From positions 1 through 46,810 of the forward strand of contig JANXTL010000190.1 in the NCBI GenBank assembly GCA_025352375.1: a stretch of DNA of 46,810 nucleotides, read 5' to 3'. Positions 27,265 through 40,953 of the stretch are shown piece after piece. The notes below the pieces were generated by a model. It did no database searches and was not told where the DNA came from. It saw nothing but the letters and a program-made list of their open reading frames with translations. The stretch is from Acetobacteraceae bacterium (GTDB lineage Bacteria; Pseudomonadota; Alphaproteobacteria; Acetobacterales; Acetobacteraceae). Both the position numbers and the translations under genes were made by a program. Within the stretch, counting starts at the first letter, position 1, and each line of letters begins with the position of its first letter.

Positions 27265-27693
27265 ATGCGTCACGGTGTTGCCGGCCGGAAGCTCGGCGTT
27301 ACCTCTACTCACCGCATCGCCATGTTCAGGAACATGGCCCATGCGCTGATCAAGCACGAGCAGATCACCACAACGCTGCCCAAGGCCAAGGAATTGCGCC
27401 CGGTTGCCGAAAAACTGATCACGCTGGGCAAAAAAGGCGGCCTCGCCAATCGACGTCTGGCCTATGCCGAACTGCGTGACGATGTGATCGTCGCCAAGCT
27501 GTTTGGCACGCTGGCGGATCGTTACAAGGAGCGCGCCGGCGGTTACTGCCGCGTGCTGCGGGCTGGTGTGCGTTACGGCGATTGCGCCAACATGGCGGTG
27601 ATCGAGTTCATCGATCGCGACGTCAGCGCCAAGGGCCTCGACAGCGGCCCGGTGCAGGTCCGCGCCGAGGAAGACGACGAAGCCGAGGCGTAA
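27265..27693 (+). CDS. rplQ: 50S ribosomal protein L17
   Basis: L17 is an assembly protein of the large subunit. It has 142 residues: [24 protein letters not shown], then [18 protein letters not shown] and the core ends near GYCRVLR. A C-terminal acidic tail (EEDDEAEA) follows. It is the last gene of the alpha cluster, ending before a strong terminator. Confidence 0.98.
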
Positions 27694-27715: not shown

Positions 27716-27745
27716 AAAAAGGGCGGGAGCAATCCCGCCCTTTTT
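27716..27745 (+). terminator. Intrinsic terminator of the ribosomal-protein block
   Basis: The perfect hairpin GGGCGGGA-GCAA-TCCCGCCC is flanked by A5 on the left and T5 on the right, so it works in both directions. It lies 22 bases after rplQ and just 13 bases beyond the stop codon of the amidohydrolase on the other strand, and probably ends both transcripts. Confidence 0.93.
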
Positions 27746-27758
27746 CGTGGCCCGCGAC

Positions 27759-29774
27759 TTAGCCCCGACCGTTCCGCAGGAACCTACCGGGCAGGGCGCC
27801 CGTCGGCTCTCCGTCCTCGAACGTGATTTGGCCATTCACCAGGATCCAGTTGTAGCCCTTGGACTTCTGGATCCGCCGCCATTCGCCGCCCGGCAAATCC
27901 TCGGCGACTTCCGACGGCAATACTTCCAGTTTCGCCAGGTCATAAACCACGATATCAGCCGGCGCGTTCTCGCGGAGTGCGCCGCGGTCGTGGAAACCGC
28001 CGATATGCGCCGGCAGATAGCTGAGTTTGTAGTGCGCGTCCTCCAAACTCAGGGTTTTCTCGTCGCGTACCAGCCAGGCCAGCATGTCAGTCGGATAAAT
28101 CCCGGCGGTCAGGAATTTGACATGCGCGCCACCATCGGAAACGCCGGGCACGACGACGTTCGAGTTTAATACTTCCGTCGTGAACTGCGCCGCGTCCCGT
28201 CCCTGCGTTTCGGCGAAGAATTCGGTGGCCAGGTCGTCGGCGACGACCATGTCCAGCAACGCGTCGACCAAATGCTTTTTCTGCTCGTCGGCGATTTGCT
28301 GAACCGTCCGGCCCGCCGTGTTGGCGCCCTTCCGATCCGGCACCGACGCAATCAGATGCCCGTCTTTGACGTTCACGACATAGGTTTTCAGCCGTAGTCC
28401 CTCGGCGCTGAGACATTTTCCGCCGTCGTTCTCATATTCATACCCGTGGTTTGGGCACACGAACTTCCCGGCTTCGCATTCGACCGTCCCGCCCTGGTGT
28501 GGGCAAACCCGCGACATCAAGCGGTAGCCGTCCCGTGTCTTTGTCAGGAAATACGACGAGCCGTCAATTTCGACCGCCACGGGCAGTTTCGGAAATGCCG
28601 ATTCTGCGCCGATATCCACCTTCACGTTGCGCGTCCGCAGTATCAGGCTACCAACCGAACCGGGCACGACAGTTGTTGGGCGGACGCCGGAATCCCACTC
28701 TTCCTTCAGACGGCGGCGCATCGCCGGGTCCTGCATTTTCGCCTTTTTCTCGGCTTTCGTTCCGAGCGTGACGTCCCGCCAGGCGTCGGTGTCGTCGAAC
28801 AGGTTCCAGTCCTCGAATGTCATCTCGAACCCGCCGCGCCGCGTGGCGCCCTGGCCGTAAACCGGCAGGCCACGCTCGGTGCAGCTTTCCAGCCATTTGA
28901 TGCGTTCGCGGTGCTGTTCGGGGTGTACGGCATTCGGGGCGACGACCTGGTACAGCACGGGCCGTTTCGCCACGGCCGCGACTTTTTCGAAGAACCGTTT
29001 GGTTTCCTCGGCCAGCGGGCGGCCTTCCTCGCCGGTTTCCTGATAAGCGAGTTCGATGAATCCTTCCTCGCGATCTCCCAGGATTTGGGCGAAGGCCAGG
29101 ATTTCGTGCTCGGACAGCAGGTCCGTGATCATTGGCGTCCCGTCGTAATCCCGCTGAATGGATTTGACACCGAGTACTTGCGCGGACCATCCGGCCGCGC
29201 CGGCATCCATCGCCTCATGGATCAGGCGGCACATTTCCTGCAATTCTGCCTCGGTGGGGCGGCGCTTCTTGGCCTCCTCCCAGCCCATGACCCAGGCGTA
29301 AAGCGGGGTCAGCGGTACGTAGGTCAGACAATTCACACCTTTTGGCGTGCGGATCAGGCTATCAATGAAATCCGGGAACGTGACCCAGTCCCACGGCATG
29401 CCGACCTTCATCGCCTCATACGGGATCGCCTCGTTGCGGGTCATGCTGAGCATCGCTCGGTCCTGATCCTCGACCCGTGATGGCGCGAAGCCGAACCCGC
29501 AATTGCCCAGCGCGACTGACGTAACGCCGTGCCAGCCGGATAATGTGCAGTACGGGTCCCAGAAAATTTGGGCGTCGTAATGGGTGTGCAGATCGACGAA
29601 GCCGGGGGCAACGATGCGGCCCGTGGCGTCCAGGACCCGATGCGCGGTCTTGCCTTTCAGGCCGCCGATTTGGGCGATCTTGCCATCTTTGATTGCGATG
29701 TCGCCGATATAGCGGGGTGTTCGTGTCCCATCGACGATCGTGCCGCCTTTGATGAGAATGTCGTAGTCGACCAT
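27759..29774 (-). CDS. D-aminoacylase-type amidohydrolase with an inserted Rieske domain
   Basis: The start is the ATG at 29774 (GGAGGA ahead; the longer frame to 29921 has no sign of coding). The 671-residue protein begins as an amidohydrolase (amidohydro_3 / N-acyl-D-amino-acid deacylase type): the metal motif DLHTHYD (H63, H65), then LGNCGFGFAP with C92, and near the C-terminus SDGGAHV with D547. Between about residues 384 and 478 lies a complete Rieske-type module: CPH at 424-426 and CPNH at 440-443, spaced by 13 residues, within a beta-sheet sequence, followed by a linker back to the barrel at GRTVQQIADEQ. It should bind a [2Fe-2S] cluster. Two His ligands of classical D-aminoacylase are not evident. 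Function and substrate are unknown. Confidence 0.9.
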   Translation of the reverse strand: MVDYDILIKGGTIVDGTRTPRYIGDIAIKDGKIAQIGGLKGKTAHRVLDATGRIVAPGFVDLHTHYDAQIFWDPYCTLSGWHGVTSVALGNCGFGFAPSRVEDQDRAMLSMTRNEAIPYEAMKVGMPWDWVTFPDFIDSLIRTPKGVNCLTYVPLTPLYAWVMGWEEAKKRRPTEAELQEMCRLIHEAMDAGAAGWSAQVLGVKSIQRDYDGTPMITDLLSEHEILAFAQILGDREEGFIELAYQETGEEGRPLAEETKRFFEKVAAVAKRPVLYQVVAPNAVHPEQHRERIKWLESCTERGLPVYGQGATRRGGFEMTFEDWNLFDDTDAWRDVTLGTKAEKKAKMQDPAMRRRLKEEWDSGVRPTTVVPGSVGSLILRTRNVKVDIGAESAFPKLPVAVEIDGSSYFLTKTRDGYRLMSRVCPHQGGTVECEAGKFVCPNHGYEYENDGGKCLSAEGLRLKTYVVNVKDGHLIASVPDRKGANTAGRTVQQIADEQKKHLVDALLDMVVADDLATEFFAETQGRDAAQFTTEVLNSNVVVPGVSDGGAHVKFLTAGIYPTDMLAWLVRDEKTLSLEDAHYKLSYLPAHIGGFHDRGALRENAPADIVVYDLAKLEVLPSEVAEDLPGGEWRRIQKSKGYNWILVNGQITFEDGEPTGALPGRFLRNGRG
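28341..28625 (-). other. Rieske [2Fe-2S] domain inserted in the amidohydrolase
   Basis: Codons for residues 384-478 form a compact Rieske fold: two beta strands with YFLTKTRDGYRLM, the first cluster loop SRVCPHQGGT, the second cluster loop FVCPNHGYEYEND, and closing strands AEGLRLKTYVVNVKDGHL. The four ligands C424, H426, C440 and H443 are all present. Usual spacing between the CxH and CxxH loops is about 15-17; here it is 13, still seen in some ferredoxin-like Rieske proteins. The frame is continuous on both sides, with no intervening stop, so it is part of the same polypeptide. Confidence 0.88.
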
Positions 29775-29923
29775 GGCGTCCTCCGTTTTGTTATTGATTC
29801 GATAGCGACGTGGGAGCAGCGAACGACCCAAAATTGGAGATGTCAATAGGTGTTCGCATGCAGCACCCTTGCCCCGAACCTCGTCCCGCGCGATCCTTCC
29901 CCCATCACCTGGAGGAAACACAC

Positions 29924-30862
29924 ATGAGCATGTTCGTTATCGGCGGCACTGGCTTCATCGGCACCCGCGTTATCCCGCTGCTCGTTGCACGCGGCGAGTC
30001 CGTGGTCTGCATGGACATCAACCCGCACACCGCCAATTTTTCCGCATTTGGCGACAAGGTGAAGGTCGTACGCGGCGACGTCACCCAATTTGACGACGTG
30101 CTGAACCAGATGCAGGCGTCCGGCGCCGATAGGGTGATGAACCTGTCCTACAATCTGGGCTCGGATCTGCCGCCGCATCTGGCGACCAAGCTCAACATCG
30201 TAGGCATGGACAATTGCTTCGAGGCCGCCCGCATCCTGGGCATCAAACATACCGTTTACGCCAGCTCCCTCGCGGTGAACGGGCAGCAGAAGCACTTCGG
30301 CGACCGCTCGGTCAACGAAGACGATTTGCATATGGGCAACAATCAGTATGCCATGCACAAATCCTTCAACGAGTGGCAGGCCAAGGACTACGTTGCGAAG
30401 TACGGGATGACGATCACCGGCATCCGTCCGGCCAATGTCACGGGCCCTGACAAGGTGCGGGGGTCCGTCGATCACGTGAACATCGTCACCCACCCGGCGC
30501 GGGGGGAGGCGATCACCTTCCCCTATGCCGACGCCATGCGCTGCCCGATTCACGTCGACGACATCGCCGAGGTCTTCACCCGCGTCGTTATGACCGACAA
30601 ACCCAAGCACCAGATCTACAGCTCCGGTGGCGCGGTCGTCAGCCTGGGCGAAATCGCGGCGATCGTGAGATCCTATCTCCCGGACGCGCGGATATCGTTC
30701 GATCACCAGACCGGGGGCAAAGATAGCTCCGGCAACTACCTGATCGACAATGCCCGCTTGATGACGGAATTCGGGGTTCAATATCGCCCCTACCGCGAAC
30801 GCGTGCTGCAAATCGTCAATGCCGTCCGCGAGGAACAGGGGCTGCCCGCTATCAAGGGCTAA
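29924..30862 (+). CDS. NAD-dependent epimerase/dehydratase (extended SDR)
   Basis: The protein has 312 residues from the ATG at 29924, which has GGAGGA upstream. The Rossmann motif GGTGFIG is at residues 7-13, an acidic residue that favours NAD is at D31, SS at 114-115, and Y142 and K146 form the YxxxK pair (QYAMHK). The late part (PIHVDDIAEVFTRVV, then IYSSGGAVVSLGEIA) is typical of sugar epimerase-like proteins, but the substrate could also be a non-sugar. The gene diverges from the Rieske amidohydrolase with a 149-base gap, so both may be co-regulated. An amino-acid-type binding protein follows 49 bases later. Confidence 0.9.
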   Translation: MSMFVIGGTGFIGTRVIPLLVARGESVVCMDINPHTANFSAFGDKVKVVRGDVTQFDDVLNQMQASGADRVMNLSYNLGSDLPPHLATKLNIVGMDNCFEAARILGIKHTVYASSLAVNGQQKHFGDRSVNEDDLHMGNNQYAMHKSFNEWQAKDYVAKYGMTITGIRPANVTGPDKVRGSVDHVNIVTHPARGEAITFPYADAMRCPIHVDDIAEVFTRVVMTDKPKHQIYSSGGAVVSLGEIAAIVRSYLPDARISFDHQTGGKDSSGNYLIDNARLMTEFGVQYRPYRERVLQIVNAVREEQGLPAIKG

Positions 30863-33171: not shown

Positions 33172-34524
33172 CTATTGCGCCGCGATTGCCGTCGATTTCC
33201 AGCGGCTAACCGGGTTCGGCAATCCTAAATTCTCCCGCAGCGTCGTTCCTTCGTACTCCGTCCGGAAAAGGCCGCGCCGTTGCAACTCCGGGATCACCAA
33301 GTCGACGAAATCGGTCAGTGAGCCCGGCAGCCACGCCGGCATCACGTTGAACCCGTCGCACGCGCCGTTACGGAACCAGTGCTCCATCGTATCGGCGATT
33401 TGTTCCGGTGTGCCTATGGACAGCAGATGCCCGCGCGGCCCGGCGTTCAACAAACACAGCTCCCATAACGTCAAATTGTCCCGGCGGGCGGCTTCCAGAA
33501 GCAGGCGCTGGCGGGACAAAGGACCATTGGTGTCACCCATATCGGGCACCGGGCCATCGAGCGGAAATTTATCGAGCCCGCCGACCCCGATGGTGTGCTC
33601 CAGCACCGCGATGCCGACGCTGGGGTGAATCAGCGACTGCAAATAATCGAATTTCTCCCGCGCTTCGGCCTCGGTTCGGCCAACCACCGGGTATATTCCA
33701 GGAAGAATACGAACATTGTCCGGGCCGCGGCCGAAACGCGGCAGCCGGCCCATTACATCGGCATAAAACTCCGTCGCCTGCTCGAAGGTCGTTTGCGCGG
33801 TGAACACGACCTCGGCCGTGTGCGCCGCCAGATCGCGGCCCGTGTCCGAGGCGCCAGCCTGCACCAATACCGGCCGTCCTTGTGGGGAGCACGCGACGTT
33901 CAACGGTCCGCGCACGGAAAAATATTTCCCGCGATGATTCAGTGTGTGCATTTTCGCTGGGTCGTAATAAATGCCGGACTCCTGGTCGCGGATGAAGGCA
34001 TCCGGCTCCCATGAATCCCATAGTCCGGTGACGACTTCGGCGAATTCCCCCGCCATGTCGTACCGGTCGGCGTGGGCGGCGTGCTTGTCGCGGCCGTGGT
34101 TGAACGCCTCGGCCTCGTTGTTCGATGTTACGAGATTCCAGCCCGCTCGCCCGCCGCTGATCTGGTCCAGAGATGCGAATTGCCGCGCGAGGTTATAAGG
34201 ATCGTTGTAGGTGGACGACGTGGTGGCAACTAACCCGATATGCGACGTGACCGCGGCCAAAGCGGACAGGATCGTCATCGGCTCGAATTTCACTAATTTG
34301 CCCATACGGCCCCGCGACTCCGGGGAGCCGAAAATGCTGACGGCGGCGCTGTCGGCGAGGAAGAAAAGGTCGAACAACCCGCGTTCGGCGGTGCGCGCGA
34401 CGTCGGCAGCCTGCGCGAAGTTGGTGCCGGACTCGGCATAGGCGCCAGGGTGGCGCCAGGCGGCGACGTGTTGGCCGGTTTCGTGAACGAAGGCGCCGAG
34501 TTTCATCATGCGGACCGTGGTCAT
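33172..34524 (-). CDS. NtaA/DmoA-family FMN-dependent monooxygenase
   Basis: This 450-residue enzyme is in the luciferase-like monooxygenase fold. Family features include MKLGAFVHETGQHVAAWRHP near the N-terminus, GLFDLFFLADS, TSHIGLVATTSSTYNDPYNLAR, LDQISGGRAGWNLVTS and QAGASDTGRDLAA. NtaA, SnaA, DszA and DmoA members use reduced FMN from a partner reductase to oxidise nitrilotriacetate, sulfur heterocycles or dimethyl sulfide. Its start overlaps the stop of the neighbouring flavin monooxygenase by four bases, so the two are an operon. The end faces the MFS gene across one base. Confidence 0.92.
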   Translation of the reverse strand: MTTVRMMKLGAFVHETGQHVAAWRHPGAYAESGTNFAQAADVARTAERGLFDLFFLADSAAVSIFGSPESRGRMGKLVKFEPMTILSALAAVTSHIGLVATTSSTYNDPYNLARQFASLDQISGGRAGWNLVTSNNEAEAFNHGRDKHAAHADRYDMAGEFAEVVTGLWDSWEPDAFIRDQESGIYYDPAKMHTLNHRGKYFSVRGPLNVACSPQGRPVLVQAGASDTGRDLAAHTAEVVFTAQTTFEQATEFYADVMGRLPRFGRGPDNVRILPGIYPVVGRTEAEAREKFDYLQSLIHPSVGIAVLEHTIGVGGLDKFPLDGPVPDMGDTNGPLSRQRLLLEAARRDNLTLWELCLLNAGPRGHLLSIGTPEQIADTMEHWFRNGACDGFNVMPAWLPGSLTDFVDLVIPELQRRGLFRTEYEGTTLRENLGLPNPVSRWKSTAIAAQ

Positions 34525-35528
34525 GGTCGGTGGCTCCCGGTTTCGCGCGATGTTGCATCCGATAGGGGCAGGGACGCAAACCCTCGCAACGTCTCCCGCG
34601 AATTCCCCAGGATGTTCAACAACAAGTAATGCACGCCCGCGTCATGCAACGCCGCGATTTTCGGGGCGACGTCCTCCGGTGTCCCGTATAGCGCGGCCTC
34701 CGCCCGAGCCTCCGGCCGGTCGGCCCAGGCGAGGATGTGGGAACCGCCGTCGCGGCCGGGGGTGCGGGCGGCGTCGATCATCCGCTGATGCCCCGCCGCC
34801 CGCCGGCGGAGCGCATCCGCCGCATCCACCGTCAGGCAGGCGTCGCGCGCCACCGCGACGGACATGGGATCGAACGCCCGGCCGTTCGCTTCGACCGTCG
34901 CGCGATACAGCGCGATCCGTTGCCGGATAATATCGACTGGCGAGAACTGGTCCAGCAGCAGCCGGTACCCTCGTTCAGCAGCTCGGATGATCGACGCATC
35001 GCGGCCGGCGCTGACCCAGATCGGCGGGTGCGGCCGTTGCAACGGCGGCGGTTCCAGCACGATGTCGTCGAACCGCCAGAACCGGCCGCGATGGGAAAAA
35101 CGTTCCGCCGATGTCCAGGCGCGGGTCATCACCGACAACGACTCCTCGAACCGCGCCTCGGCCTCGGCGTCGTCCATGGCAAAGCCATGGAATTCGTTGT
35201 GCCGATAGCCGCGTCCGACGCCCAATTCCAGCCGCCCGCCGGACAGCACGTCCACTGTCGCCGCCTGCTCGGCCAGCAAAATGGGATTGTGCCACGCCAG
35301 AACCATGACGGCGGTGCCAAGGCGCAACGTGGTCGTGTGGGCAGCAAGCCAAGTGAGCAAATGCAGCGGCGCCGACACCTGCCCCCATCCGGTAAAGTGG
35401 TGCTCGGTCAGGAAGCAGCCGCGATAGCCGAGTGCCTCGGCTTCCAGCAAGAAGTCGAGGTAATCGCGGTAACCCCGGGCGGGGTCCGATGCGGCGGACT
35501 GGGCGCCGCCGAACAGGCCGAATTGCAT
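34521..35528 (-). CDS. LLM-class flavin-dependent oxidoreductase
   Basis: This 335-residue luciferase-like monooxygenase begins MQFGLFGGAQ, then GYRGCFLTEHHFTGWGQVSAP and LRLGTAVMVLAWHNPILLAEQ, and has the SGGRLELGVGRGY motif for flavin contact. The exact oxidation is unknown. It is the first gene of the operon with the NtaA-type gene. Its ATG is two bases from the left 116-bp repeat, so its ribosome site would lie in the repeat, where only a poor AGATC-type match is present. Confidence 0.9.
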   Translation of the reverse strand: MQFGLFGGAQSAASDPARGYRDYLDFLLEAEALGYRGCFLTEHHFTGWGQVSAPLHLLTWLAAHTTTLRLGTAVMVLAWHNPILLAEQAATVDVLSGGRLELGVGRGYRHNEFHGFAMDDAEAEARFEESLSVMTRAWTSAERFSHRGRFWRFDDIVLEPPPLQRPHPPIWVSAGRDASIIRAAERGYRLLLDQFSPVDIIRQRIALYRATVEANGRAFDPMSVAVARDACLTVDAADALRRRAAGHQRMIDAARTPGRDGGSHILAWADRPEARAEAALYGTPEDVAPKIAALHDAGVHYLLLNILGNSRETLRGFASLPLSDATSRETGSHRP

Positions 35529-37952: not shown

Positions 37953-38066
37953 AGCGTGATCGCCTGAGGTTGACTTCAACCTCGGGCGTGAATCACCCTC
38001 TCAAACTAAGGCTTAGACCATGATCCAACGCCGAGATCGCATGCAACCTCAAACGATCATGGTCTA
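37951..38066. repeat. Right copy of the 116-bp inverted repeat
   Basis: This is the reverse complement of 35531-35646, with two mismatches (a T/G and a T/A). The two inverted copies face each other across about 2.3 kb. This copy provides the end of two stop codons: the AG of the citrate synthase TAG (37950-37952) and the TAG of the metalloprotease on the other strand (38064-38066). Its hairpins may also end transcription from both sides. Confidence 0.95.
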
Positions 38067-39023
38067 GGCGCGTTGCCGCCGTCGCAACCGCAACAGACCC
38101 GCGATGCCGATGGCGAATAGCGCGTATGTTCCGGGTTCGGGAACGTTGTAACCGATCGCGGTCAGGGCCGCGATCTCGGCCGGGCCCAGGGTTGGGCTCG
38201 CACCTGGTGTCCCGAACGCGTCCTGCACCCGCGGGACGGCGCCGGACTGCCAGTCGGCGTGGTCGGCGCCGTTGTTCGTGTTGTTGAACTGGGCCAGATC
38301 CGTGGTGCCGTCGATCGAGAAATAGGCGTTGGTGGTGGCGGTGGTAAAGCTGCGGGTGCCGTCGCTGGCGTAGCGGAAGAGATCTTCCGGCGAGGGCACG
38401 TTCGTGCAGGGCCCGGTATTTGGACTAAACCCGCAAGTTTGGCCGCTGAGTCCCAGACCCAGCGTAGATCCGAGGCCGAGGATTTCGTCGATCTCATGTT
38501 CGACGACGGTCAGCAGCGAATATTGGCTGGCACTGCCTGGGCTGCCAGGCGTGGTCAGGCTGGTATTCAGGGTGATGGTCCCAGCGCTGGCACAGCCCGA
38601 GGCACCGTTACCGAAGAGTGCGTCGATATTCGCGCACTTCATCAGGATGTCGTTGGTTCCGGTTACGGGGTTGAACAGCGAGATCGGGTTCGCGGCAACG
38701 GCCGCCAGTTGGGTTGCGTTCATCGTCGTGTGAGCGTTGTTGTAAAGCGCCGTCGAAAACGCGCTGTACGAAATGTCGAACAGACTGAACGAACTGCCGC
38801 CGAGCCCGCCGCCTTCCTGGAAGGTAATCGCGACGTCGATCGGGTTGGTAAACAGATGCTCGTACGTCAGGATCGCCGAGTTGATGGTTGCCTCGATCGC
38901 AGCGGCGTTCAAGTCCGAGGTGATAGAACCACCGAACGTCGGCGTAATGGTCAGATTAGCCGTCGCCGGCCCGGCTGCGGCGAGCGCACCGGCGGCGGCC
39001 AGAATAACCGTCCAACGGGTCAT
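38064..39023 (-). CDS. PEP-CTERM metalloprotease (NF038122-like)
   Basis: This 319-residue protein is exported: MTRWTVILAAAGALAAAGPATA is a signal peptide. The zinc motif HEIDE (176-180) in VEHEIDEILGLGS, an active-site-like region SPEDLFRY (211-218) and a late AEIAALTAIGYN fit the NF038122 metalloprotease group. The C-terminus has VPEPGTYALFAIGIAGLLRLRRR: the VPEP signal, a membrane helix and a basic end for exosortase sorting. A paralogue with an RTX tail is the next gene upstream on the same strand; the two may be co-transcribed. No exosortase is in the window. The stop codon lies in the right repeat. Confidence 0.85.
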   Translation of the reverse strand: MTRWTVILAAAGALAAAGPATANLTITPTFGGSITSDLNAAAIEATINSAILTYEHLFTNPIDVAITFQEGGGLGGSSFSLFDISYSAFSTALYNNAHTTMNATQLAAVAANPISLFNPVTGTNDILMKCANIDALFGNGASGCASAGTITLNTSLTTPGSPGSASQYSLLTVVEHEIDEILGLGSTLGLGLSGQTCGFSPNTGPCTNVPSPEDLFRYASDGTRSFTTATTNAYFSIDGTTDLAQFNNTNNGADHADWQSGAVPRVQDAFGTPGASPTLGPAEIAALTAIGYNVPEPGTYALFAIGIAGLLRLRRRQRA

Positions 39024-39025
39024 GC

Positions 39026-40915
39026 TCAGTTATGCAGAATGTTGTTGGCACCGATATTCTGCAAGCCGCTGATGCCGATTAGCATGTTGGTCGCGGACAG
39101 AGCTTCCGAACCGCTGGAGGTGTTGACGTAGATATAGGTGTTGCCGCCCGACGTCTGATACCCGATGGATTTCGCCGCCAACGTGGAGATGGACAGCGAG
39201 CCCACGAAATTGAGATGCGTGGCGCCGACCCCGGTCAGATCGATAAAGTCCCTGTTGGCGGCGAAGTTGTAAAGGGAGTCCATTCCGGCCCAGGCGGAGT
39301 CGCTGGCTGCATTATAAAGGAAGGTGTTCGGTCCGCTGCCGCCGATCATGATGTCGGCCCCCGCGCCGCCATCGAACCACAGTTTGCCGGTCATGCCGCT
39401 GCCGTTGAGCGTATCGTTTCCGGCGAGGCCGTAAATGAAGGTCGGGGCCGCTTTGGACGCGGCACCGACAAGTGTCGCGATGGAAACGGTATCGCGGCCG
39501 CTGCCGCCAATGACGACGTCGAAGGCCGAAGCAGTGGACGACAATCCGGTGGTGGTGTCCGTCGCTTGCAAGGTCAGGGCATACACTTTGCCATTGGCGC
39601 CGCCCGTCGCGCCGGCGGCTCCAACTGACAAGGTCGCGGTCTTGTTGGCGTTGGCGGTGAGCTGGAACGACCCAGCGTTGGTGCCGCCGAGTTTGTAGGC
39701 GATCGGATCGCCGGCGACCCCGCCGACGGCGGTCAAAGTCCCGAGCGCGCTGTTGGCATTCAGCCCCGACGTGCCCTGCGCTGCCGCGAGGGCCCCGGTG
39801 ATCGGTGCGATGGCAACCGCGCCTGGCGGCGCCACGACAGGCGCCGGTGTTGGTGTTGGTGTGGGTGTCGGTGCCGGCGTGGTGGCACCGTTGAGCGTCC
39901 ACCCAATGGCGTTCAGTTCGGTGATGTCGCCGCTGGTGACCGGATTGACCACGCCCGAATTGGAGAACGCGTCGAACGCGTTGTTGCCCATGCTGGACGC
40001 CCAGTCCGCCGCATCGCCACCGGAGACCGTGTTGAAGTTGCCGCCGTTGGTGACACCTCCATTGGCCGAGAAATACCCTGGCGTGCTGGCCGAGAAGTCC
40101 CGAACGCCGGGGGCCGAATAGTGCAACAGGTCCAGAAGGGCGTAGCTGTTGGTGTAGGGCCCGATGGAGCCGCCCGTCAGCATTATACGGCCCATGACCT
40201 CGGCGATCTCATGCCAGGCGACCGCGTTGAAATCGTAAGTGCCCACGGCAACGCTGCCGCCGTTTCCGTAGGTAAACGCATAGGCACTGCTGAGGCCGAT
40301 GTAGCCATCGAGACCGGTGCCGTTGGCGGGAGCCAAGCCGAGCGCCTTCGCTTGTGCGGTGGTCACCCAGATATTGCCGTTGACCGGCTGATTCGATGGC
40401 AAGGACGCAAGCACCGCGGCGGTCGTTGCATTGCTGTTATGGGCCGCCAACGCGGTCCGGAGCGACGCGTAGCTGACCGATTGCAAAAAGGACTCGCTTT
40501 CGCCCAGCGCGCCGCTGCCCATCGAGGTGCCGGCGATTTCCCCGTATCCGACGTCGAGGTCGATCATGATGGCGTTGTTGAAGTTGGCCTCCCACGCCTG
40601 CGCCGCGGCGATCACGCCCGTCATGAACGCGCTTGGCGCGGACGCCACGCTGGTGTCCCAGGTGATTTTGATCGTCAGCGCCGAACCCGCTGTCGTGACG
40701 GTCGTCGGCGCCGGTGCGGCCAGACCGCCGGAAATGAACTGAAACGATCCAGCACTGCCCGTACCGGCGTCACCCATGGCGAACAGTCCGCTGGGGGCTG
40801 ACGACGCCCCAACATCGACCGCATCCAAGCCAAGCCTATTGGACGAATAATCGGTGTCGATTCCCTGCCCGTCGTCGGAGCCGAAGGACGTCTTCGTCTT
40901 ATGGTTTAAAGACAT
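39026..40915 (-). CDS. RTX-tailed metalloprotease (NF038122-like)
   Basis: I choose the ATG at 40915 (MSLNHKTKT, AGGA nine bases upstream) over 40924, giving 629 residues. The protein has no signal peptide. Positions below count from the longer form. A metalloprotease domain with HEIAE (238-242) in AWHEIAEVMGR matches that of the neighbour; both then have a LLxY- and ADW-type sequence before an ELNAIGW end. A Pro-rich linker (PTPTPTPTP, near 350-362) leads to RTX-type calcium repeats: GGSGRDT (473), GLAGNDT (499) and GGAGADIMIGGSG (519). This points to type I secretion. It is separated from the PEP-CTERM gene by two bases. Confidence 0.85.
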   Translation of the reverse strand: MSLNHKTKTSFGSDDGQGIDTDYSSNRLGLDAVDVGASSAPSGLFAMGDAGTGSAGSFQFISGGLAAPAPTTVTTAGSALTIKITWDTSVASAPSAFMTGVIAAAQAWEANFNNAIMIDLDVGYGEIAGTSMGSGALGESESFLQSVSYASLRTALAAHNSNATTAAVLASLPSNQPVNGNIWVTTAQAKALGLAPANGTGLDGYIGLSSAYAFTYGNGGSVAVGTYDFNAVAWHEIAEVMGRIMLTGGSIGPYTNSYALLDLLHYSAPGVRDFSASTPGYFSANGGVTNGGNFNTVSGGDAADWASSMGNNAFDAFSNSGVVNPVTSGDITELNAIGWTLNGATTPAPTPTPTPTPAPVVAPPGAVAIAPITGALAAAQGTSGLNANSALGTLTAVGGVAGDPIAYKLGGTNAGSFQLTANANKTATLSVGAAGATGGANGKVYALTLQATDTTTGLSSTASAFDVVIGGSGRDTVSIATLVGAASKAAPTFIYGLAGNDTLNGSGMTGKLWFDGGAGADIMIGGSGPNTFLYNAASDSAWAGMDSLYNFAANRDFIDLTGVGATHLNFVGSLSISTLAAKSIGYQTSGGNTYIYVNTSSGSEALSATNMLIGISGLQNIGANNILHN

Positions 40916-40953
40916 CAAAAACATTCCTGTCGATATAAGGTTGCAGTGTTCGT

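Follow-up and report, generated by a model that had tools for sequence, protein, structure and literature searches.

A 46,810-nucleotide stretch of DNA from an Acetobacteraceae bacterium (contig JANXTL010000190.1 of assembly GCA_025352375.1; this whole stretch is called the window below) carries a gene for a 671-residue protein in which a small Rieske [2Fe-2S] ferredoxin domain, complete in itself, interrupts a D-aminoacylase-like Amidohydro_3 barrel. Such a pairing of barrel and small Rieske ferredoxin occurs within one chain (in cis) in one clade and as separate genes (in trans) in two further lineages, which argues, at the level of sequence, that the barrel is a client of the ferredoxin. 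We give about an even chance to the reading in which the built-in Rieske domain acts as electron donor to a metal in the barrel for oxidative chemistry, the protein being a redox enzyme of the same working type as AibH2 and SfbO but of another Pfam family.

Architecture and predicted fold

Pfam, structure prediction and insert-less sister proteins agree on the architecture, and bear out the original prediction that a Rieske domain inserted in frame divides a single D-aminoacylase-type barrel. The 671-residue protein matches Amidohydro_3 (PF07969; E 8e-20, 72.2 bits against a cut-off of 29.7), Amidohydro_1 (residues 537-625, E 7.9e-7) and the Rieske family PF00355 (E 3.4e-7, 30.5 bits against a cut-off of 20.3), the last falling within the stretch first proposed to be Rieske (residues 384-478), with amidohydrolase families flanking it. 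No families other than Amidohydro and Rieske were found on this protein in Pfam at E up to 10; the domain search for the architecture covered Pfam and NCBIfam. A contig scan of genomes gave 115 confirmed relatives, of which 80 loci were kept and analysed, and the alignments exclude open reading frames (ORFs) that miss query residues 6 to 640 or contain unknown residues. They comprise 76 rows (13 fused, 63 insert-less), 86 with the addition of 10 of the 14 paralogues tried, and 88 with two sister proteins. Both PF07969 and PF00355 are matched by 13/13 fused members (E up to 1; best 8.8e-8 for PF00355), and the four cluster ligands C424, H426, C440 and H443, whose positions had been given correctly, are invariant in all 13 fused rows. 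Among the other motifs named at the outset SDGGAH does lie at residues 546-551, whereas HTHYD and GNCG are at 63-67 and 90-93 rather than at 62-66 and 91-94. The start codon (ATG at 29774) has GGAGGA 4 nt upstream and its M1 is aligned in 13/13 fused rows; the reading frame is open further upstream, up to a GTG at 29921. Long plus-strand frames opposite the gene (window positions 27717-28166 and 28398-29477) recur opposite homologues, are as expected from codon usage and are probably not genes.

AlphaFold2, for which 60 of the 76 rows were taken, modelled the full protein with a mean predicted local distance difference test (pLDDT) score of 88.4 and a predicted template modelling (pTM) score of 0.84, and Foldseek matched this model to D-aminoacylase, N-acyl-D-glutamate deacylase and PpOngB. 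Ten-residue pLDDT means across the insert range from 68 to 88, except for 43 at residues 451-460, and the ligand loops are at 68-77. Whether the insert would fold on its own had been raised with the original prediction; modelled alone from 13 sequences (pLDDT 82, pTM 0.73) it is predicted to do so, and its fold matches those of Rieske oxygenase domains, of nitrite-reductase small subunits, of Rieske ferredoxins and of cytochrome Rieske proteins. A viral fold library returned no meaningful match. In PpOngB an insertion domain after strand 7 holds substrate-binding residues (PMC12017989). Strand 7 of the window protein is at residues 305-309 and D547 lies just past a strand at 541-543 (strand numbers being inferred), and the model has the Rieske domain nested in the insertion domain between strands 7 and 8, a domain expected to line the pocket because its PpOngB counterpart carries those substrate-binding residues. 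Positions that the fused clade alone has fixed, and at which the sister protein L141 differs, are concentrated beside the insert (8/56 in residues 488-543 versus 12/489 elsewhere; Fisher p 3.6e-4, for a region picked post hoc), as would be expected if the Rieske domain packs there.

Candidate metal ligands are H63, H65, H551, D547, D67 and E115, each of them without variation among the counted rows, and H63, H65, C92, D547 and H551 are invariant in 86/86. Enzymes of subtype V, to which D-aminoacylase, N-acyl-D-glutamate deacylase and PpOngB belong, are described as marked by beta-site histidines on strands 5 and 6 (His222 and His252 of PpOngB; PMC12017989). The window protein has no His between residues 236 and 283, so the observation that two histidines of classical D-aminoacylase are missing was right, although the absence is subfamily-wide. 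Among the 88 rows a His occurs in the strand-5 region (239-249) in 5 and in the strand-6 region (272-283) in 27, and in both only in L100 and L102. A loss caused by the insert was thus rejected, since just 2/75 insert-less rows have His in both regions; because the insert-less rows mostly lack the two as well, the missing beta-site histidines are, across the aligned sequences, a trait of the subfamily. The remaining site resembles the second (alpha) site of D-aminoacylase.

Distribution, origin and separate Rieske partners

The architecture first seen in the window recurs in related genomes and is thus beyond chance: of the 80 loci retained, 12, belonging to 11 genomes, have its full-length, insert-bearing form, with 77-84% identity to the window protein. 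The other 68 loci are without a Rieske motif in the corresponding frame, and in public records the relatives are named amidohydrolase or D-aminoacylase. Two of the 12 (L001 and L002, 84 and 83% identical to the window copy) lie on two contigs of a single Alphaproteobacteria metagenome-assembled genome (MAG), G580, the rest being in genomes titled SAR202, Dehalococcoidia or Chloroflexota. In the family to which the genome of one of these fused loci, L003, belongs, the fused gene is present in 10/50 genomes, one copy each, unlike G580. Its order has the fused gene in 10/250 genomes, with insert-less matches in an eleventh, and the class-level sample in 1/393, the genome of L003 itself, because that sample was drawn evenly. 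The family of the Alphaproteobacteria MAG has it in 1/39 genomes, in two copies. Around the window, its own genome is the one carrier in genus (1/33, with insert-less relatives in three congeners), order (1/200) and class (1/385). Among 20 matches listed from a plasmid collection (128 records, best place in each below 60% identity) none looked fused, and no Rieske gene is listed in one annotated plasmid region, whose gene table is incomplete.

In a tree computed without the insert columns (86 rows), the 13 fused rows lie on one side of one branch with a Shimodaira-Hasegawa-like approximate likelihood ratio test (SH-aLRT) support of 100. Their sisters, with a support of 99 when added (88 rows), are two insert-less proteins from one genome of the order of L003's genome (L141 and L142, 63 and 59% identical), and alignment with them indicates that the Rieske domain replaces about a dozen residues between residues 381 and 487 of the window protein. 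The tree, as far as sequences go, thus shows a single origin of the insertion. The nearest relative of the insert among the sequences compared is a 122-residue stand-alone Rieske protein of the SAR202 genomes G584 and G581, residues 20-121 of which align to residues 380-480 of the window protein. It has 45-63% identity to the inserts over ~100 residues (E 8e-35 to 1e-49, 107-144 bits), whereas the 12 non-kin Rieske sequences in the comparison set, including 5 of the host genome's 19 Rieske regions, reach at most 38% and 48 bits. The stand-alone ferredoxin and the inserts have a CPHQGG loop in common, but the former is a separate gene and not nested; it lies tail-to-tail with an insert-less paralogue of the subfamily in both genomes, ~235 and ~70 bp apart, and both genomes also carry the fused gene. 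Since this ferredoxin is placed among the inserts in a ferredoxin tree (92/88), fusion of a ferredoxin and a split of the fused gene are equally possible, the tree giving no direction.

A second insert-less clade, ~50% identical (L038, L039, L041 and L042), has a Rieske ferredoxin gene of ~105 codons that directly adjoins the amidohydrolase gene. In L038 and L039 it lies upstream, the L039 copy running into the end of its contig, and in L042 it follows ~30 bp downstream. L041 again has it upstream, but there a frame change breaks it at ~2330-2660, which could be either a sequencing error in a draft contig or a decaying gene. The L038 and L039 ferredoxins, the two that were scanned, match PF00355, and the L038-type ferredoxin is more distant from the insert than the SAR202 one. 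The small Rieske protein that goes with the barrel is part of the same chain in 13 rows, the product of a separate neighbouring gene in L038, L039, L042, L100 and L102, and interrupted in L041. No further ferredoxin-sized Rieske genes were found with two motif patterns in the 68 insert-less loci (970 kb including the genes), the remaining motif matches being oxygenase-like ORFs (L055 and L063) and a chance match (L060). Likewise, no small Rieske gene turned up in a further 30 loci (that of the window among them) taken with flanks of 1.5 kb, and none was found near L098, L099, L101, L108-L110, L141 or L142. Four of the further loci (L158-L161) do have, within 1.5 kb, an ORF that resembles a Rieske-oxygenase alpha subunit by motif and length, while a match in L168 is due to chance. 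These four insert-less members come from one family of the window's class, and the nearby oxygenase-like ORF hints at the pathways served.

Role of the nested ferredoxin

The original prediction had left the choice between a redox switch, a structural cofactor and a new oxidative chemistry. The last is favoured, if unproven, because separate Rieske ferredoxin partners have been described for oxygenases of the amidohydrolase superfamily. AibH1H2 together with the Rieske ferredoxin AibG hydroxylates 2-aminoisobutyrate, pairs of Rieske and amidohydrolase genes served to find SfbO, and AibH2 and SfbO, both PF04909, hold two metals with three His and three carboxylates as ligands (PMC7782822, PMC10401708, PMC10811679). 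By analogy, the Rieske ferredoxin domain of the fused protein would accept electrons from a cellular reductase and hand them on to a redox-active metal bound by H63, H65, D547 and C92, and the barrel would then act on a small molecule by O2-dependent (or some other) redox chemistry, working as AibH2 and SfbO do with a Rieske partner, except that the partner is in the same chain. Besides this precedent, the reading is favoured by the invariant cluster ligands, by a low ratio of nonsynonymous to synonymous substitution rates (dN/dS) of the insert in three pairs, by the single origin of the insertion, by the kinship of the insert with a ferredoxin encoded next to an insert-less paralogue, by the ferredoxin genes of the second clade and by the clade-specific positions beside the insert. 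Reductases for Rieske centres are likely to be present in the host cell, because its genome has 19 PF00355 matches in 5.1 Mb, the fused gene included. A more specific proposal, which we hold to be possible but clearly less likely than not, is that of a self-contained oxygenase on a D-aminoacylase barrel, in which, with the histidines of strands 5 and 6 lost, H63, H65 and D547 (as a 2-His-1-carboxylate set) with C92 would hold one redox-active Fe or Mn. The nested ferredoxin would feed this metal across the pocket wall, and the whole would have passed, as one gene, out of the SAR202 Chloroflexota into other bacteria. If true, this would be a Rieske oxygenase re-invented on a triose-phosphate isomerase (TIM) barrel.

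Several findings weigh against electron delivery from the insert to the barrel. PF04909 is not among the families that the window protein matches at E up to 10. Metal-site residues are the same with and without the insert (86/86), which would also fit an ordinary hydrolase that happens to carry the insert, and only G38, K637 and E656, none at the metal site, separate Rieske-associated from other rows. Mean pairwise identity among the fused proteins is 67% in the insert versus 87-88% in the barrel, and the dN/dS of the insert is 0.45 in the closest pair, L008-L011, which has few changes. Most insert-less loci have no separate ferredoxin in view nearby, the counts of Rieske neighbours are raw, and the SAR202 ferredoxin and paralogue genes are convergent, hence not an operon. 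Finally, no linked reductase was found: the fused gene arrived alone, and, apart from one luciferase-like family in 7, no neighbour family is present in most of the 13 fused loci.

Such findings can be accommodated in other ways. The barrel could have remained a hydrolase with a tethered Rieske domain from which a distinct oxygenase in the same pathway would draw electrons, which we hold to be unlikely. The ORFs resembling oxygenase alpha subunits by motif and length, within 1.5 kb of L158-L161 and beside or near L055 and L063, speak for it, as do the unchanged metal-site residues and the fold of the insert, which matches Rieske ferredoxins and oxygenase Rieske domains alike; a domain lining the pocket would, however, be an odd site for a carrier serving another protein, and the different small ferredoxin paired with the barrel gene in L038, L039, L041 and L042 points to the barrel itself as client. 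Distinctly improbable, in our estimation, is a redox switch or structural cofactor, in which the [2Fe-2S] cluster would gate the pocket or stabilise the lid of a hydrolase that damage or reduction switches off. Placement of the insert in the stretch matching the PpOngB insertion domain with its substrate-binding residues (PMC12017989), the same metal-site residues and the faster evolution of the insert would all fit, but the separate ferredoxin genes beside some insert-less relatives would be left unexplained.

That the ferredoxin is a passive passenger, which landed in a tolerated loop and was kept without any functional link to the barrel, seems very improbable. It would account for the faster evolution of the insert and for the value of the close pair L008-L011, yet the four ligands are invariant, the insert dN/dS is low in three other pairs (~0.05-0.13 in L001-L002, L006-L053 and L007-L009; distant pairs are saturated), the insert was kept through spread between phyla, and ferredoxin genes adjoin relatives. 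There remains the trivial explanation of a chimera of Rieske and amidohydrolase genes made by assembly or gene calling, which might be thought of because the host genome is a fragmented draft (355 contigs) and the fused homologues come, by title, from metagenome-assembled or uncultured genomes. With 12 of the 80 loci, from 11 genomes, sharing the architecture, three of them titled whole chromosomes, with 10 of the 50 genomes of one SAR202 family carrying the gene, and with an empty site both flanks of which match, its probability is next to nil, and such an artefact was ruled out on the 11 genomes and the empty site.

At least part of a subfamily named amidohydrolase or D-aminoacylase may, on sequence grounds, consist of redox enzymes, given the nested ferredoxin and the separate Rieske genes beside some insert-less relatives. 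The domain insertion can be traced, since one bacterial order contains the fused form together with an insert-less sister and a stand-alone ferredoxin akin to the insert, and the fused protein lends itself to studies, within a single chain, of how electrons reach the metal site of an amidohydrolase. A role in oxidising resistant dissolved organic matter has been discussed for SAR202 bacteria (PMC6946804), and on that account the substrate of the fused protein could be of wider interest.

Genomic setting and comparison with known systems

Because homology to the empty site breaks and resumes around the fused gene in five congeners (Table 1), a single-gene segment of ~2.1 kb is, by these alignments, an acquisition between rplQ and an epimerase gene. 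Among 29 congener loci around rplQ, six (L112, L113, L115, L116, L117 and L130), from which the five aligned ones come, have the epimerase ~65-140 bp after rplQ and two (L118 and L140) have it 600-700 bp away, whereas in 21 there is no epimerase match within the 1.5 kb or less that was fetched. The base composition of the acquired gene is unremarkable, its GC content at third codon positions being 0.76 versus 0.75-0.83 in its neighbours. In the tree, the window copy groups with the two Alphaproteobacteria copies (support 100) in a clade next to the SAR202 copies, and since this clade adjoins them, transfer of the fused gene from SAR202 is likely on phylogenetic grounds.

Table 1. Positions and supporting evidence of the fused gene, its parts, its flanks and the stand-alone ferredoxin genes (window coordinates unless a locus is named; rows are alignment rows)
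Feature	Position	Strand	Evidence
Rieske-amidohydrolase coding sequence, 671 aa	27762..29774, stop codon 27759-27761	-	Translation, Pfam, GGAGGA before ATG
Residues 1-380: beta-domain strands, barrel strands 1-7, start of insertion domain	28635..29774	-	Pfam; AlphaFold2; insert-less sister gives split point; strand numbers inferred
HTHYD, residues 63-67, candidate metal ligands H63 and H65	29574..29588	-	H63, H65, D67 invariant in 86/86 rows
C92, position of D-aminoacylase metal Cys	29499..29501	-	Invariant in 86/86 rows; role according to PMC12017989
Inserted Rieske ferredoxin, residues ~381-487	28314..28634	-	Alignments with insert-less L141/L142 and stand-alone SAR202 ferredoxin
PF00355 match, residues 392-464	28383..28601	-	Pfam; recovered also in whole-genome search
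Cluster ligands C424 and H426 (CPH)	28497..28505	-	Invariant, 13/13
Cluster ligands C440 and H443 (CxxH)	28446..28457	-	Invariant, 13/13
Residues 488-671: insertion-domain end, barrel strand 8, C-terminal beta-domain	27762..28313	-	Pfam; AlphaFold2
DGGAH, D547 to H551, D547 at catalytic-Asp position	28122..28136	-	D547, H551 invariant in 86/86 rows
Acquired segment, approximate, ~2.1 kb	27754..29865		Empty-site alignment of five congeners: homology stops between 27749 and 27771, resumes 29866-29868
rplQ, left flank of empty site	27265..27693	+	Congener locus comparison
Hairpin and T-run after rplQ	27721..27745		Present also in five empty-site congeners; by eye from sequences; acquired gene runs towards it from opposite side
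NAD-dependent epimerase, right flank of empty site	29924..30862	+	Pfam; congener locus comparison
Stand-alone SAR202 Rieske ferredoxin genes	L100:211-615; L102:3250-3693		Pairwise comparison with inserts

Because the fused gene arrived alone, its neighbours in the window say little about its function. A conserved operon around it was rejected, as neighbour clustering of 13 loci gave no widely shared family other than a luciferase-like one, in 7. Tandem luciferase-like monooxygenase genes (Pfam Bac_luciferase) do lie on the minus strand at 33172-35528 of the window, beside genes for a family-3 solute-binding protein and a major facilitator superfamily (MFS) transporter, and the family of the second one occurs near 6/12 other fused loci, perhaps through the mere abundance of such genes; as a partner, the pair at 33-35.5 kb is unsupported, again because the fused gene came by itself. 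Flavin monooxygenases are expanded in some SAR202 groups (PMC6946804). The host organism is itself rich in Rieske and amidohydrolase enzymes, the query giving 14 match rows at 8 places in its genome, i.e. 7 other amidohydrolase loci. Further along the minus strand, at 38064-40924, lie genes for two adjoining secreted-looking proteins, the longer with a GGAGAD repeat. The first has what we take to be a PEP-CTERM-like tail, and both presumably carry HExx-like motifs (HEIDEILG and HEIAEVMG).

The remark in the original prediction that its author knew of no described protein with this architecture stands, in that no such description was found in a search of 5.39 million open-access papers, subscription titles being mostly outside the search; nor was a Rieske partner found there for any amidohydrolase branch outside PF04909. 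Amidohydrolase-superfamily enzymes served by a Rieske protein are thus already known, while a ferredoxin nested in a PF07969 barrel was not found described.

The best sequence and fold matches are the subtype V enzymes (D-aminoacylase, N-acyl-D-glutamate deacylase and PpOngB; 1m7j, 3gip, 9g5m and 9kb1), with which the window protein shares a barrel with beta-domain, the HxH motif, a metal Cys (here C92), a catalytic Asp (here D547) and an insertion domain after strand 7. Unlike them it is without the beta-site His on strands 5 and 6 and has a Rieske domain inside the insertion domain; judged by its sequence it is not a strict subtype V deacylase, as those histidines are absent. The alpha subunits of Rieske non-heme iron oxygenases presumably offer another parallel, a Rieske domain and a candidate 2-His-1-carboxylate site (H63, H65 and D547) being joined in one chain. 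Their catalytic domain is one of their own, however, which Pfam did not find in the window protein at E up to 10, a TIM barrel taking its place, and by the same token the protein is not a Rieske oxygenase alpha subunit. Nor is it, from its family matches, a member of the AibH2 family: AibH1H2, SfbO and PtmU3 are amidohydrolase-related dinuclear oxygenases of PF04909, whereas the window protein belongs to PF07969, and its metal site is expected to differ from the dinuclear site of AibH2 and SfbO. What it does have in common with AibH1H2, served by AibG, is the combination of an amidohydrolase-superfamily barrel with a small Rieske ferredoxin, which is encoded by a separate gene in the Aib system and built into the barrel protein here.

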